A DNA stretch of 33,543 bases, from NCBI GenBank assembly GCA_026390675.1, contig JAPLFM010000303.1, positions 1,490 through 35,032 on the forward strand, written 5' to 3'. The first letter of the stretch is position 1. Each line of letters starts with the position of its first letter. Made by a program: the position numbers and the translations under genes. Positions 2,576 to 18,481 of this stretch are shown in pieces. Under the pieces are notes generated by a model. The model saw nothing but the letters and a program-made list of their open reading frames with translations, was not told where the DNA came from and made no database searches. This stretch comes from Candidatus Kapaibacterium sp. (lineage in GTDB: Bacteria > Bacteroidota > Ignavibacteria > Kapaibacteriales > UBA2268).

Positions 2576-5284
2576 ATGAAAATATTTGCAACCCTTATAT
2601 TATTAGTTTTAACTTGTAATATTTATTCGCAAGAGTACAAAGATTTAATCCCTTTACCAAAAGCATATTTTGAAAGGTCAGGTACTTTTGTTGTACAGCC
2701 TGAGATTCAAATTGCTTATGCTTCCAAAACAAACCAAAGCTCTGGCGAAAGAAAAGCAATAGAATATTTAAAATCTAATTTTCAGAAATACTTAAGTATT
2801 AAATTTTTAGAAGTAGAATTTAAAGATATTGATAAAACCAAAAGTACAATCTATATTTCAATCAAAAACACAAATCAATTTTTTGATAACTTCACTACAA
2901 AACAGAAACCTTCAACCTTTCAAACAATAAATGAAAAGGAAGGATATTGTTTGGATATAGATTTCAATGAAATTGTTATCTCTGGAGTTGATGAAGCTGG
3001 CTTAATGAATGCTGCAAGTACTTTAATTCAATTAATCGATAAAACATCAAACGTTACTAAAGTCAAATCGGGAAATATTATTGACTATCCAAAATACCAA
3101 GATAGGTGGATATTTTCTCAGCATAACCTACGAGGTGCAAATGCTATGACTCAGTTAGAACAACTTGCCGATACAATGGTTTACCGCAAACTGAATGGGA
3201 TACAACAAAATGATTGGAAATATAATGCTCTTAAAGATCAACCAAAGTATTATTTCGATAGTGTTACAAGATTTAAAAATTATTTTATAAATCGCAATAT
3301 TGAAATTATACCAGGTTTAGCTGGTATTGGTTGGTCTGATGGGATACTATATAATGATCCCAATCTTGCAGAAGGTTTGAAAACTTCAGTAGATTATATC
3401 ATAGAAAAAGATACAGCAAGATTAATTACTGACCCAAAAGCTGTTTTAAACAATGGTGGATTTGAAACAATTGGTGGTAATGGTAAATTTTCAGATTGGT
3501 CTTGGTATGATGAGCAGTATGTTAGTCAAGATAAAACTGTTTTTCATTCTGGCTCTGCTTCTGCTTTATGCACTAATTTTGATGGAGGTAATTGTAGATT
3601 TAACAAAAGTATTACTTTCCAAAAAGATAGAGGTTATCTTTTATCTGCTTGGGTAAAAACTGAAAATTTTAAAGGAGATGATCTTAGACTTTTTGCTTAT
3701 GCAAAAGAAGATGACGGAAATTATAGAGCAATAACTTTTACAAGTATTGGTGTTGCAAACACTTCAAAAAATTGGGTAAAACTTGAAGTAACTTTTAATT
3801 CGCTCAAATACACATCTATTAATTTATACGTAGGAGTTTGGGGAGCTAACCAAGGTAAGTTATGGATTGATGATATTGAATTAAAGGATATAGGATTGAC
3901 TAATATATTACGTAGAAGTGGCACTCCGTTAACAGTAGTAAATAAAGTTACTAAAGTAAATATGACTGAAAATAATGATTTTGAAAAAGTAGAAGATAAA
4001 TTACTTAGTTCGAATTATGGACCTTACCATCAAGCACCAACATTCAAGATTAAACAAGGTGGATTGATAAAAAATGGAGATATACTTACTATTAGTTCAT
4101 ACCATCCATTTACAGCAGTTAGCGATGAAAATGGTAATGGTTCAGTTATGGTTTGTGTTTCTGAAGATACTCTATATAAAATTCTTAACTCTCAAATGAA
4201 AGATTTATATAATTTATACAGTTATAAAAAAGGACTATTTGGACAAGATGAAATAAGAAACATGAATTGGGATGATGCTTGCTTGAGTAGAGCTTTATCT
4301 CCTGCAGATTTACTTGGTGAAAATATTACAAAGTGCTATAATATAGCAAAATCAATAAACAAAGATATTGAAACATTTATGTGGAGTGATATGGTTGATT
4401 CTTTACATAATGCATATAAAGATTATTATTTAATAAACGGCGACCTTAAAGGAGTTTGGAATAAAATCCCAAAGGATATTACAATAGTAAATTGGAATAG
4501 TAAAATGGTAGCATCACTTAAATTCTTTGATAATTTAGGTTTTTCTCAAGTATCTTCACCATATTATGACGTAAAAAATACTGTAAATATTAGATCTTGG
4601 AGAATTGCTCAAGAGAAATTCAATAAAATTAAAGGTATGATGTACACTACTTGGGGTGGGGATTATGATTTTCTAACACCTTTTTCATATTACGCTTGGG
4701 GAGCTGGACCAAATTATAATTTTACTCCTTTAGATATTTTAGAATCAAAAAATGACACATTGCATTTTAATTTAAATATATTAAAAGATCCTTATGATAT
4801 TAATGATAAGATTGATTCTTCCAGATTATATATTCAATATACTTTAGCAGGAAGTTTGAAAATAGAAGAGTTTAAATTAAATGCAAATTCAAATATTTTT
4901 AATATTAATATATTAAATAAATATAAAGATTTAAATATTAATTATATAAATTATAAATTTAAATCAACTAATGTGCAAGGTATAACTAACTATTCACCTA
5001 ATTATATTTTATATTTTCCAACTAAATCAATTATAAATAATAATATTTCTGAGTTTAAAATAAAACCCAATCCAGCAAAAGAATATATTGAAATTTGTTC
5101 ATTAAATATTTATAATTATCATTATGAATTAATTGATTTAAATAGTAATATAATATTAAATGGTAATTTGGATAAAGAAACTAATAAAATATATTTAGAT
5201 AATGTTGCAAGTGGAATATATATAATAAATATTATTTCAAACGGAATAAATATAAATTCAGAGAAGATTATAATTACAAAATAA
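2576..5284 (+). CDS. GH20-like glycoside hydrolase with internal carbohydrate-binding-like domain and T9SS C-terminal sorting domain
   Basis: Signal peptide; N-terminal GH20b-like domain (LIPLPKAYFERSGTFVVQPEIQIAY...GYCLDID...GLMNAASTLIQLI); barrel segment with FGQDEIRNMNWDD, a candidate D-E catalytic pair; inserted jelly-roll-like stretch NNGGFETIG...LWIDDIEL; tail FKIKPNPAKEYIEI...ASGIYIINIISNG. Confidence 0.75.
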   Translation: MKIFATLILLVLTCNIYSQEYKDLIPLPKAYFERSGTFVVQPEIQIAYASKTNQSSGERKAIEYLKSNFQKYLSIKFLEVEFKDIDKTKSTIYISIKNTNQFFDNFTTKQKPSTFQTINEKEGYCLDIDFNEIVISGVDEAGLMNAASTLIQLIDKTSNVTKVKSGNIIDYPKYQDRWIFSQHNLRGANAMTQLEQLADTMVYRKLNGIQQNDWKYNALKDQPKYYFDSVTRFKNYFINRNIEIIPGLAGIGWSDGILYNDPNLAEGLKTSVDYIIEKDTARLITDPKAVLNNGGFETIGGNGKFSDWSWYDEQYVSQDKTVFHSGSASALCTNFDGGNCRFNKSITFQKDRGYLLSAWVKTENFKGDDLRLFAYAKEDDGNYRAITFTSIGVANTSKNWVKLEVTFNSLKYTSINLYVGVWGANQGKLWIDDIELKDIGLTNILRRSGTPLTVVNKVTKVNMTENNDFEKVEDKLLSSNYGPYHQAPTFKIKQGGLIKNGDILTISSYHPFTAVSDENGNGSVMVCVSEDTLYKILNSQMKDLYNLYSYKKGLFGQDEIRNMNWDDACLSRALSPADLLGENITKCYNIAKSINKDIETFMWSDMVDSLHNAYKDYYLINGDLKGVWNKIPKDITIVNWNSKMVASLKFFDNLGFSQVSSPYYDVKNTVNIRSWRIAQEKFNKIKGMMYTTWGGDYDFLTPFSYYAWGAGPNYNFTPLDILESKNDTLHFNLNILKDPYDINDKIDSSRLYIQYTLAGSLKIEEFKLNANSNIFNINILNKYKDLNINYINYKFKSTNVQGITNYSPNYILYFPTKSIINNNISEFKIKPNPAKEYIEICSLNIYNYHYELIDLNSNIILNGNLDKETNKIYLDNVASGIYIINIISNGININSEKIIITK

Positions 5285-14107: not shown

Positions 14108-14809
14108 ATGCAACCAGTAATTCCATTTTATATTAATGCAACATTCCAAGCTTTGGTTTTTCTTTTGTTTGTTTATTTGCTATATAATGTAAAACAAATT
14201 TATCAAGATACAAAAAAGATCCCTGTAATTTTTGGAACTATTCTGATAATGTGGTTAGTAACTCAGTCTGTATTAGCTTCATCTGGGTTTTATCTCAATG
14301 ACAAAGGATTCCCCCCTAGATTTGTATTTGCGGTTTTGCCACCATTTCTATTTATTTTATATTTATTCTTTTTCAAAAAAGATTTTTTAAAGAAACTTGA
14401 TTTAGAGCAATTAAACTATATTCATACAAGTAGAGTAGTAGTAGAAGTTGTATTATTATGGCTTTTTCAAATTCATTTAGTTCCTCAACAAATGACATTT
14501 GAAGGAACTAATTATGATTTGATGATTGGTATCACAGCTCCTTATATTACTTATTCATTTTATGCAAACAAACTTAGTAAAAGACTTTACATAGTTTGGA
14601 ATATTGCTGGTGTCGCCATGTTACTAAATGTTGTAATAGCAGGAATACTTTCTGCACCAACAGCAATTCAAAAATTCAATTTAGACCAACCAAATATAGG
14701 TATTTTAATGTATCCATTTATTTGGCTAGCTTGTTTTATTGTGCCTTTAGTTTTCTTTATTCATTTTGTTACAATATGGCGAATAATTAAAGAAGGCAAA
14801 AACTCATAG
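14108..14809 (+). CDS. Multi-pass membrane protein of unknown function
   Basis: Several hydrophobic segments, e.g. FQALVFLLFVYLLY, IFGTILIMWLVTQSVLAS, PFIWLACFIVPLVFFIHFV. No recognised family motif. Confidence 0.7.
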   Translation: MQPVIPFYINATFQALVFLLFVYLLYNVKQIYQDTKKIPVIFGTILIMWLVTQSVLASSGFYLNDKGFPPRFVFAVLPPFLFILYLFFFKKDFLKKLDLEQLNYIHTSRVVVEVVLLWLFQIHLVPQQMTFEGTNYDLMIGITAPYITYSFYANKLSKRLYIVWNIAGVAMLLNVVIAGILSAPTAIQKFNLDQPNIGILMYPFIWLACFIVPLVFFIHFVTIWRIIKEGKNS

Positions 14810-14910
14810 GATATTGGGTTTGTTTTAAATTGTTAAATATTTTAAAAAATAGAAACTAATCATAAGTTTTAAACGTATCTAAAATATTATTTATTCAGAA
14901 ATATATTAAA

Positions 14911-15789
14911 ATGGCTAAAAAATCAAAAAAAGCAAGTGAACCAACAGGTATTGCAGCAATTATTGCTTGGTTTCGAACTTTATTGGGTGCAATTGTAGTA
15001 GTAATGTTAATTAATGGGGCGATAGTAGCTTCTTTTGTAGTTCCAACTGCATCAATGGAACGTACTGTAATGACAGGTGATTTCCTTTTTGTGAATAAAT
15101 TTATCTATGGTCCAACTACTCCTCAAGTGGTACCATTTATAAATATGCCTTTACCTTTTTACAAGTTCCCAGGATATAGAAAACCTAAATTAAGCGATGT
15201 TATAGTTTTCATTTACCCGGGCAATAGAGACGAAATAGAACCAAGTGTTTTTAATTACTATTTAAAAAGATGTTGTGGTACTCCTGGTGATGAAATTCAA
15301 CTTAAAGACAAACAACTTTTTGTAAATGGAACCAAAATTCCTTTAGCTCCTAATGGTGTTTATATTCCAGAATTACCAGATCATCCTGCAAATTTCCCTT
15401 TTGGCAATGATTTCTCTAGAGATAATTATGGGCCTCTCCGCATACCTAAAGCTGGGGATGTAATTAAAATTAATCCTGAAAACTTAAGAGTGTGGGATGT
15501 ATTAATCAAAAGAGAAGGTCATGAAGTAGTTTCAAACGGTAGTGAAATTCAAATAGATGGTAAAGTGGCTACAAGCTATACTGTTAAAAGAAATTATTAC
15601 TTTGGTATGGGTGATAATAGAGATAATAGTGAAGATAGTCGTTCTTGGGGATTTATTCCTGAAGACAATATCATTGGTTCTCCAATGTTTGTATATTGGT
15701 CATGGGATACAAATTTACCATTGATTTCTGAATTCTTTACAAAGCTTACAACTATTAGATGGTCTCGAATTGCTACTATAATTAGATAA
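14911..15789 (+). CDS. lepB: Signal peptidase I (first of tandem pair)
   Basis: Ser region PTASMERTVMTGDFLFVNKF; Lys region YYLKRCCGTPGDEI; C-terminal YYFGMGDNRDNSEDSRSWGFIP. Confidence 0.93.
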   Translation: MAKKSKKASEPTGIAAIIAWFRTLLGAIVVVMLINGAIVASFVVPTASMERTVMTGDFLFVNKFIYGPTTPQVVPFINMPLPFYKFPGYRKPKLSDVIVFIYPGNRDEIEPSVFNYYLKRCCGTPGDEIQLKDKQLFVNGTKIPLAPNGVYIPELPDHPANFPFGNDFSRDNYGPLRIPKAGDVIKINPENLRVWDVLIKREGHEVVSNGSEIQIDGKVATSYTVKRNYYFGMGDNRDNSEDSRSWGFIPEDNIIGSPMFVYWSWDTNLPLISEFFTKLTTIRWSRIATIIR

Positions 15790-15791
15790 TT

Positions 15792-16355
15792 ATGCAAGCC
15801 ATTAATTCCTCTTTTAAAGGCAATCGTAAATATTACTGGCTTCAGTTTACGATTGCCTTTTTTGTTTTAATAATTTTAATTACTTTTATTAAAGTATTTT
15901 ATTTAGGCTTTTACAGAGTCGGTTCATCTTCAATGTTACCAACTCTTCAAATTGGTGATATGGTTTTGGTTGATAAGCATTATTATAAACAAAATGGTTT
16001 AAATAAAGGAGATATTGTTTTTTTTCATCAAAACAATACTAATAAGGACTTGGTTAAAAGGATTTTTGCTATTGAAGGCGATACAGTCTTATATCTTAAT
16101 GATAATTTATTTGTAAATAACTTAGACTTTACAAATAAAGATGAATTTAACGAGAAATGGTTAAGCAAATACAAAAAAGTTATAGTAGAAAAGGGTAAAA
16201 TATTTTTAGTAGGCGACAATTTAAATATAAGTTCAGATTCAAGAGATTGGGGAACAATAGAAGAAAGTGAAATTCTTGGTAAAATTTCATTCATTTATTT
16301 TTCAAAAGATAGCAATGGCTTTCATTTTGATAGAATAGGAAACAATTTATATTAA
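15792..16355 (+). CDS. Short signal peptidase I paralogue (second of tandem pair)
   Basis: GSSSMLPTLQIGDMVLVDKHYY (Ser), KDLVKRIFAIEGDTV (Lys), IFLVGDNLNISSDSRDWGTI. Confidence 0.88.
   Translation: MQAINSSFKGNRKYYWLQFTIAFFVLIILITFIKVFYLGFYRVGSSSMLPTLQIGDMVLVDKHYYKQNGLNKGDIVFFHQNNTNKDLVKRIFAIEGDTVLYLNDNLFVNNLDFTNKDEFNEKWLSKYKKVIVEKGKIFLVGDNLNISSDSRDWGTIEESEILGKISFIYFSKDSNGFHFDRIGNNLY
15816..15863 (+). terminator. Terminator/attenuator-like perfect hairpin inside the second signal peptidase ORF
   Basis: AAAGGCAATCGTAAA - tattactggcttcag - TTTACGATTGCCTTT then TTT: perfect 15-bp arms, 15-nt loop, T6 tract (15858-15863), 27 nt after the lepB stop. Confidence 0.7.
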
Positions 16356-17539
16356 TGTACGGATTATATTTACATATTCCTTTTTGTCAGAAAATTTGCT
16401 ACTATTGTGACTTTTTTGTTGATAAAAATCTTGATTTGGTTCAAGCTTATGTAAATGCTTTATGTAAAGAAATTGAAAGGGAAATGCTTGGATATAATTC
16501 AAAGCCCAAACTATCAACTATATATATTGGTGGTGGCACACCATCATTGCTTAGCCCAAATCAAATGGAACAAATAGTTAATGCTTTGGTTAATAATTTT
16601 GATTTAAGCGAATTAGAAGAATTTTCTATGGAATCTAATCCTGGTTCTGTTTCTTTAGATACTTTAAAGGAGTACAAATCTTTTGGGATTGATAGGCTTA
16701 GTATTGGGGTTCAGTCTTTTGTAAAAAGAGAGTTAGGCTTTTTAAAAAGAAATCATTCGCCCAAGAAAGCAATCAAAGCAATTGAAGATGCACACAAAGC
16801 TGGGTTCAACAATATCAATCTGGACTTGATTTTTGCTGTCCCAGGTCAAACTAATGAATCGTGGCAGTATTCTTTACAAACAGCTTTTAATTTGGGAACA
16901 ACACATTTATCTACATATAGTTTGATTTATGAAGAGGGTACACCACTTTATAAAGCTTGGAAGAATGGAAAAGTAGCTAAAACAAGCGATGATGATGATG
17001 CTGATATTTATGAGCTTACAATTAATGAAGCTTCAAATTTTGGTTTTAAACAATACGAAGTTTCTAATTTTGCTAAATATGAACTATATTGCAAACATAA
17101 TTTAGGAAGTTGGCAGGGATCTGAATATTTTGCATTTGGTGCTTCGGCTCATGGACACCTTGATAATAAAAGATTTTGGAGAGTTAAAAATCTAAGTGAA
17201 TTTATCTCCTTTAATAATAAAAATAAAACAACAATAATCGGCGAAGAGATTATTTCATTAAAAGGAAGAATTGAAGAATCTATTTTTTTAGCTTTAAGAT
17301 CAACTGGAATTGACATTTTAAAACTAAATACTAAATTTAATTTAGACTTAGCTAAAGTTTTTGAAAAAGAAATCGAATATTACATTAAGAATGATTGCGT
17401 TATTTTAGAAAACAATTTGATAAAGCTAACTAGCAAAGGATATGCTATTTGTGATAGCATTACATTATCTTTTGTTAGTAAAATAGAAAATTATTTAGAA
17501 AAGAACTTAAAATCTCTTAACTTGCATAATATAAATTAG
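16355..17539 (+). CDS. hemW: HemW-like radical SAM protein (heme chaperone / coproporphyrinogen III oxidase-like)
   Basis: YLHIPFCQKICYYCDFF radical SAM cluster motif; TIYIGGGTPSLL; DRLSIGVQSF; NINLDLIFAVPGQT; FGASAHGHLDNKRFW. Confidence 0.92.
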   Translation: MYGLYLHIPFCQKICYYCDFFVDKNLDLVQAYVNALCKEIEREMLGYNSKPKLSTIYIGGGTPSLLSPNQMEQIVNALVNNFDLSELEEFSMESNPGSVSLDTLKEYKSFGIDRLSIGVQSFVKRELGFLKRNHSPKKAIKAIEDAHKAGFNNINLDLIFAVPGQTNESWQYSLQTAFNLGTTHLSTYSLIYEEGTPLYKAWKNGKVAKTSDDDDADIYELTINEASNFGFKQYEVSNFAKYELYCKHNLGSWQGSEYFAFGASAHGHLDNKRFWRVKNLSEFISFNNKNKTTIIGEEIISLKGRIEESIFLALRSTGIDILKLNTKFNLDLAKVFEKEIEYYIKNDCVILENNLIKLTSKGYAICDSITLSFVSKIENYLEKNLKSLNLHNIN

Positions 17540-17551
17540 CACGAGAAAAGA

Positions 17552-18481
17552 ATGAAACGAACATTATCTGTTTTCTTTAATATTGATAGAACTTATGTTA
17601 CTATTACAGAGCCCAATGAAAAGGGAATTGAGCTACTATATCTTAATTCTACCGATACTAATATCGACTTAGAGAACTTAGATGACGATTTTGCTCAAGT
17701 AGGTATAGAAGACTTGGAAGCTCTTTTGAAACCTATCGAAATTGAAGTTGATAGAATATGTGTTACTATCCCAGCAGAAAGTGTTTTAGTTTCTCAATTT
17801 CCAGGAAGACCTGGGATGGAAGAATCTGAATTGCGCAAACTTGTAAGTTTGGAAATTAGGAATGCTTATCCAACTTTTAACCCAGACGATTTTACATCAA
17901 ACGTAATTCCACTAGCTCAAAGACAAGATGGACAATCATTGATGCTTGCCGTAATTATGCCTAAGCAAATAATTATGTCTTGTATAGATATTTTAAAAGT
18001 TTATGATTTGCCCATAGAAAATATAGAAATTAGCCAGTTAAATGCTCATAGTGCTTTTTTATATAATTATCCAGAAATGATGGATAAAAATGTTATCATA
18101 ATTGGAGTTCAAGATCAGTTTATGGATGTAAGTGTAATTTCAGCTGGCAAACCTATTTATTATGATTTAGTATCTTTAGGTGATAAATCTGAAATTGGAA
18201 ATGTTTTTGAAGCTGAATATGAGAAATTGACTAAAACTGCAATTCAAAACATTGATTGTGCTTATTTTTTTGGAACAGGTCTTACCCGAGATATGTATAT
18301 ATCAGTTTGGGAAACCTCAATGCTACTAGGCATTGGTATTGGAAGACTTAATGCATTTAGAATGATTACTACAAAATTAGATTCAAGAGATAGGGAATAC
18401 TGTTCTAGAACTATGCATATTTATCCACCATGCATAGGGTCAAGTTTTCCTGCTTATCATGAAAAGATCAAATTAAGTTAG
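17552..18481 (+). CDS. PilM/actin-like-fold protein of unknown function
   Basis: PilM-like layout: VTIPAESVLVSQFPGRPGMEESELRKLVSLEIRNAYP and NVIIIGVQDQFMDVSVISAGKPIYYDLVSLGD resemble ATPase-fold segments. Lies between hemW and rsmD. Confidence 0.5.
   Translation: MKRTLSVFFNIDRTYVTITEPNEKGIELLYLNSTDTNIDLENLDDDFAQVGIEDLEALLKPIEIEVDRICVTIPAESVLVSQFPGRPGMEESELRKLVSLEIRNAYPTFNPDDFTSNVIPLAQRQDGQSLMLAVIMPKQIIMSCIDILKVYDLPIENIEISQLNAHSAFLYNYPEMMDKNVIIIGVQDQFMDVSVISAGKPIYYDLVSLGDKSEIGNVFEAEYEKLTKTAIQNIDCAYFFGTGLTRDMYISVWETSMLLGIGIGRLNAFRMITTKLDSRDREYCSRTMHIYPPCIGSSFPAYHEKIKLS

Follow-up and report, generated by a model that had tools for sequence, protein, structure and literature searches.

Predicted intragenic terminators are often dismissed as noise. 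Intrinsic terminators within coding sequences have been described in rsxC and narY of E. coli (PMC5021804) and in Borrelia (PMC10319736), either gene by gene or genome-wide. In the ABC importer operons of Clostridia, a hairpin with a T-tract lies in a long intergenic region between operon genes, giving more of the first product (PMC9045158). The pyrBI attenuator, as it is cited in two papers (PMC5021804, PMC4824070), has its terminator inside the translated ORF pyrL, and a ribosome following closely can block it there. Terminators in E. coli work well when they lie more than about 27 nt beyond a stop codon, out of the ribosome's reach, or inside a gene's first 100 bp; in a construct whose second ORF started 30 bp ahead of the terminator, translation lowered the efficiency by only about 10% because the ribosomes were still lagging behind RNA polymerase (PMC4824070). 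A literature search for a signal-peptidase attenuator found none. Here we describe the junction of two signal peptidase genes, lepB and lepB2, in a stretch of 33,543 nucleotides from Candidatus Kapaibacterium sp. (the window, the whole of the DNA analysed), where a terminator-like hairpin is made of lepB2 codons. The sequence and its relatives suggest that this hairpin is probably no coincidence but a real brake on lepB2 that has been conserved.

Results

The genes at this junction are closely packed (Table 1). The lepB stop codon occupies 15787-15789, and the stop of lepB2 and the start of hemW have one base in common (TAATG). The first-pass annotation had described a perfect 15-bp inverted repeat with a 15-nt loop and a T6 run, crossed by a reading frame that starts just after lepB. 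Both statements are exact in the sequence: the arms are perfect reverse complements (15816-15860), and the lepB2 frame, whose ATG at 15792 is 2 nt past the lepB stop, runs through both of them. The stem begins 26 nt from the lepB stop and 24 nt into lepB2. Its T-run (15858-15863) is followed by GTTTT, giving a tail of T6GT4, and TTTGTTTT stands directly after the last TTT of the stem.

Table 1. Features of the lepB-lepB2-hemW junction (positions in the window)
Feature	Coordinates	Strand	Description
lepB	14911-15789	+	First signal peptidase I, 292 aa; Pfam PF10502 1.9e-39; TIGR02227 1.6e-36
lepB2	15792-16355	+	Second signal peptidase I, 187 aa; PF10502 1.8e-36 from residue 17; TIGR02227 5.8e-38
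Hairpin 5' arm	15816-15830	+	AAAGGCAATCGTAAA; lepB2 codons 9-13 (K-G-N-R-K)
Hairpin loop	15831-15845	+	TATTACTGGCTTCAG, 15 nt; inner ACUG/CAGU pairing predicted
Hairpin 3' arm	15846-15860	+	TTTACGATTGCCTTT; lepB2 codons 19-23 (F-T-I-A-F)
T-tract	15858-15868	+	TTTTTTGTTTT; overlaps the stem end and also encodes the membrane segment
hemW	16355-17539	+	TIGR00539 3.1e-89, above cut-off

A wrong start codon for lepB2 could be ruled out. No in-frame ATG, GTG or TTG occurs between codon 1 and Met48, which lies at the catalytic serine motif, and the Pfam homology begins upstream of it, so both hairpin arms are coding if lepB2 is made. A motif scan found no Bacteroidota-type promoter motif on the + strand from 14325 to 16593, a weak hint that lepB2, and probably hemW too, may depend on read-through past the hairpin. 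Across the whole window TANNTTTG was enriched (108 sites against 69 expected; 0 of 100 shuffles reached that number), as would be expected if Bacteroidota-type promoters are used, and codon effects may also contribute. The surroundings include a 233-aa membrane-like ORF upstream of lepB (14108-14809) with no Pfam or NCBIfam match, a 309-aa ORF between hemW and rsmD (17552-18481) whose sole match, to PilM_2, is weak (E 0.022), and a neighbouring subtilase-like protein with a T9SS-like C-terminus, which hints at an origin on the Bacteroidota side.

The predicted minimum free energy of the hairpin RNA was -21.2 kcal/mol (z -4.66), which none of 200 shuffles equalled. An intrinsic terminator is recognised by a stable stem that runs at once into a T-rich stretch of the transcribed strand, and these canonical parts are present here on one strand only. 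A simple terminator scan did not report the hairpin because it allows loops of up to 8 nt. Typical terminators have short loops; here the nominal 15-nt loop would be shortened by the predicted inner 4-bp helix, and intergenic T-tailed hairpins with loops of 10-16 also occur in this genome. The lepB2 hairpin resembles the genome's own intergenic terminators, for example AAAGGCTGTTAAA..TTTAACAGCCTTT. Elsewhere in the same genome, two near-identical terminator-like palindromes, AGATTGTCCACC..GGTGGACAATCT, stand about 860 nt apart (L078:4225-4257 and 5088-5116). In Rfam no match exceeded the gathering score, the only hit being RF02844 on the - strand, which scored 30.8 bits where the cut-off is 49.

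Chance alone could let a positively charged, A-rich n-region pair with a T-rich membrane segment: the AAA and TTT codons that close the two arms match each other in any case, and synonymous recodings drawn from the genome's codon usage already average about 10-11 of the 15 pairs. However, none of 200,000 recodings reached 15 pairs (146 reached 14), and the fold energy of the hairpin was 4.6 sd below that of the recoded versions. The hairpin is therefore left unexplained by the peptide sequence. The product of the codon frequencies required for the arms was about 3e-6, with rare codons among them (ACG, 2% of Thr; GCC, 5% of Ala; GGC, 10% of Gly; CGT, 11% of Arg). In 911 kb of the genome (27.5% GC, 639 ORFs) it was the most stable sense-strand T-tailed hairpin inside any ORF, and it ranked first among 146 closely abutting gene pairs. 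Only two of these pairs reached -14 kcal/mol, lepB-lepB2 being one of them, and a general habit of this genome was thus ruled out. Next in strength among the T-tailed hairpins at abutting pairs is one at L153:16771 (-15.1), which lies inside the opening codons of a gene for a small membrane protein. Along with the recodings and this rank, the recurrence of the hairpin in relatives with unrelated arms and the freezing of the arms in one genus (both below) make chance pairing very improbable.

A long perfect palindrome within an ORF could also have come from a palindromic mobile or repeat element copied in frame. The exact pattern occurs only once in the 3.66-Mb assembly, though, and the arms are unrelated between relatives, so that such an origin is scarcely credible.

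We compared 11 genomes of the family, the window's genome included, that were readable with lepB directly followed by lepB2; the others are distant from the window's genome, and close comparisons were confined to genus g24. A search for close relatives for direct covariation returned only distant Firmicutes from genome contigs and none from viral contigs. A T-tailed hairpin was present in the first 30 or so codons of lepB2 in seven of the 11 genomes, from three genera: the window's genome, G071, G072 and G023 (genus g24), and G032, G017 and G067 (genus g18). The sequences are unrelated between lineages, with AAGACATACTG..CAGTATGTCTT in g24, CTTCGGCAACTGCTCT..AGAGCAATTGTCGAAG in G017 and AACACTTCAG..CTGAAGTGTT in G032. 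All seven hairpins start 13-44 nt inside lepB2, and each of the stems leads straight into a stretch of 8 nt with 5 or more T. The distance from the lepB stop varies (15-27 nt; 52 nt in G067). Among 1000 recodings for each genome, none was as good as the observed hairpin in G071, G072, G023 and G032; in G017 and G067, whose hairpins are only moderately better than the recoded controls, 16 and 22 were.

The four other tandem genomes, G024, G074 and G075 (genus g25) and G005, have no such hairpin, indicating that it is not essential to the lepB-lepB2 tandem. Furthermore, a compact T-tailed hairpin of this kind was missing from the lepB2 junctions in family f2 of the same order, so the feature does not extend to the whole order. 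Eight genomes of the family in which lepB is abutted by an unrelated gene served as a rough control, and none had a hairpin within 90 nt. In one of the eight, with hemW directly after lepB (G004, L226), a T-tailed hairpin, AAATAGCCTTAGGGAATCCCCTTTGGCTATTT (-16.8), lies 92-124 nt into hemW, and 1 of 400 synonymous recodings was as good; it is possibly the same device acting on hemW. The contrast of 7/11 with 0/8 gives a Fisher p of 0.013, and 0.06 against 1/8 when G004 is counted, both generous values since members of the same genus do not count as independent. In three loci of the family without a gene abutting lepB (L194, L200, L216), and in one of another family (L205), a plain terminator follows the lepB stop at 24-32 nt. 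In a further genome of another family (G046, L169) the order is lepB, intergenic terminator, lepB2.

Within g24, all 26 arm nucleotides, nine third positions among them, are identical between G071 and G023, while 7 of 12 loop bases differ, as do 85 of 294 bases (49 of 98 third positions) elsewhere in lepB2. The difference between the arms and the rest of the gene had a Fisher p of 0.0003 for all bases and 0.004 for third positions, on few sequences and with nine third positions a small sample. In G072 the arms carry just one change, GTA to GTG, which retains a G-U pair, and a partial copy in G073 has identical arms. As far as these sequences go, the pattern is one of a constrained stem and a free loop, and the hairpin has apparently been kept by selection in the relatives. 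The first-pass view that the hairpin is dual-coding and terminator-like was borne out by the recodings, the recurrence and the frozen arms. Its refuting outcome, orthologues with the same amino acids but without the pairing, was reversed in seven genomes: amino acids and arm letters differ between lineages although a hairpin persists, and the g24 arms are frozen. In the other four genomes the hairpin is absent.

Synonymous freezing of the arms demands an RNA or DNA function without saying which. The hairpin could act after transcription, by protecting the lepB 3' end, by serving as a processing site or by slowing ribosomes as the first membrane segment emerges, with the T-tract reflecting membrane coding only. 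T-rich codons would follow here regardless, a point that also counts against the terminator reading in that the tract is partly given anyway, and the hairpins lie inside lepB2 in all seven genomes. What speaks against a post-transcriptional role is that every one of the seven stems runs directly into its T-tract, and that this position is taken by plain intergenic terminators when lepB has no abutting gene. We consider such a role quite unlikely.

Discussion

Codon statistics and relatives indicate selection on a predicted terminator that also codes for protein. We favour, with a probability of roughly 0.62, a genuine intrinsic (Rho-independent) terminator within the first 25 codons of lepB2, which would end most transcripts after lepB while a minority read through into lepB2-hemW. 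Most transcripts would stop at this terminator, 26 nt beyond lepB, and the fraction reading through, presumably a minority, would yield lepB2 and the joined hemW. A low and roughly constant ratio of lepB2(-hemW) to lepB would thereby be fixed. On the simplest reading, the lepB terminator stayed in place and the lepB2 reading frame runs through it, because plain or intergenic terminators occupy that spot in relatives without an abutting gene. Efficient termination with minority read-through, setting a ratio as in the ABC operons of Clostridia (PMC9045158) rather than working as an on/off attenuator, would be expected because the spacer and the position of the stem in lepB2 fit the E. coli measurements (PMC4824070).

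The stem could instead be a translation-sensitive attenuator, as the first-pass annotation proposed. Ribosomes that finish lepB and restart at 15792 would reach codons 5-13 in time to block it, and lepB2 and hemW would be transcribed only when lepB2 initiation is efficient. The short gap between the lepB stop and the lepB2 start permits coupled restart, and the apparent start of lepB2 in g24 is a weak TTG. Within coding regions, pyrL being an example, an intrinsic terminator can be suppressed by closely coupled ribosomes, and the intragenic terminators of rsxC and narY have been tested (PMC5021804). However, translation cost the E. coli terminator 30 bp inside a second ORF little of its efficiency (PMC4824070). 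Blocking would require RNA polymerase pausing or an unusually fast restart, and no sign of either was evident. There was also no significant antiterminator: an alternative fold that pairs arm 1 with the region of the start codon (-10.2 kcal/mol, z -1.5; 16 of 200 shuffles as good) was within chance. Moreover, terminated transcripts under translation would be non-stop mRNAs. For these reasons the first-pass proposal that initiation at 15792 melts the hairpin is not supported, and we regard translational control of the stem as unlikely. Equally doubtful is a wider class of dual-coding attenuators, in which codons of the n-region and first membrane segment would form the terminator and read-through would be set by lepB2 initiation or insertion. 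If it were true, secretion or translation status would be fed back on lepB2-hemW, and the device would be kept while its sequence turns over between lineages.

Returning to the intrinsic terminator, the lepB2 hairpin would offer a clean natural case for measuring how far a terminator placed within a gene's first 100 bp functions ahead of the ribosomes. It would also show how codons for a charged n-region and a membrane segment (AAA.../TTT...) come to serve as a terminator.

The lepB2 hairpin would be a variant of the known intra-operon terminators, built from codons of the downstream gene. With the ABC importers of Clostridia (PMC9045158) it shares a hairpin and T-tract between operon genes; its stem, however, is not intergenic and lies 24 nt past the start of the second gene. 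In construct W48, tR2 likewise sits about 30 bp into a second ORF placed behind an upstream stop, and it keeps most of its efficiency (PMC4824070); W48 is artificial, whereas the lepB2 hairpin is natural and conserved. The likeness to pyrL is the terminator inside a translated ORF. In the citing papers (PMC5021804, PMC4824070), pyrL is a leader peptide with transcription pausing, while lepB2 encodes a full signal peptidase in which neither a pause site nor regulatory codons were seen. Finally, the terminators of rsxC and narY (PMC5021804) and of Borrelia (PMC10319736) are also within coding sequence, but the lepB2 element recurs at an orthologous junction, with a sequence that has turned over between lineages and with frozen synonymous sites.
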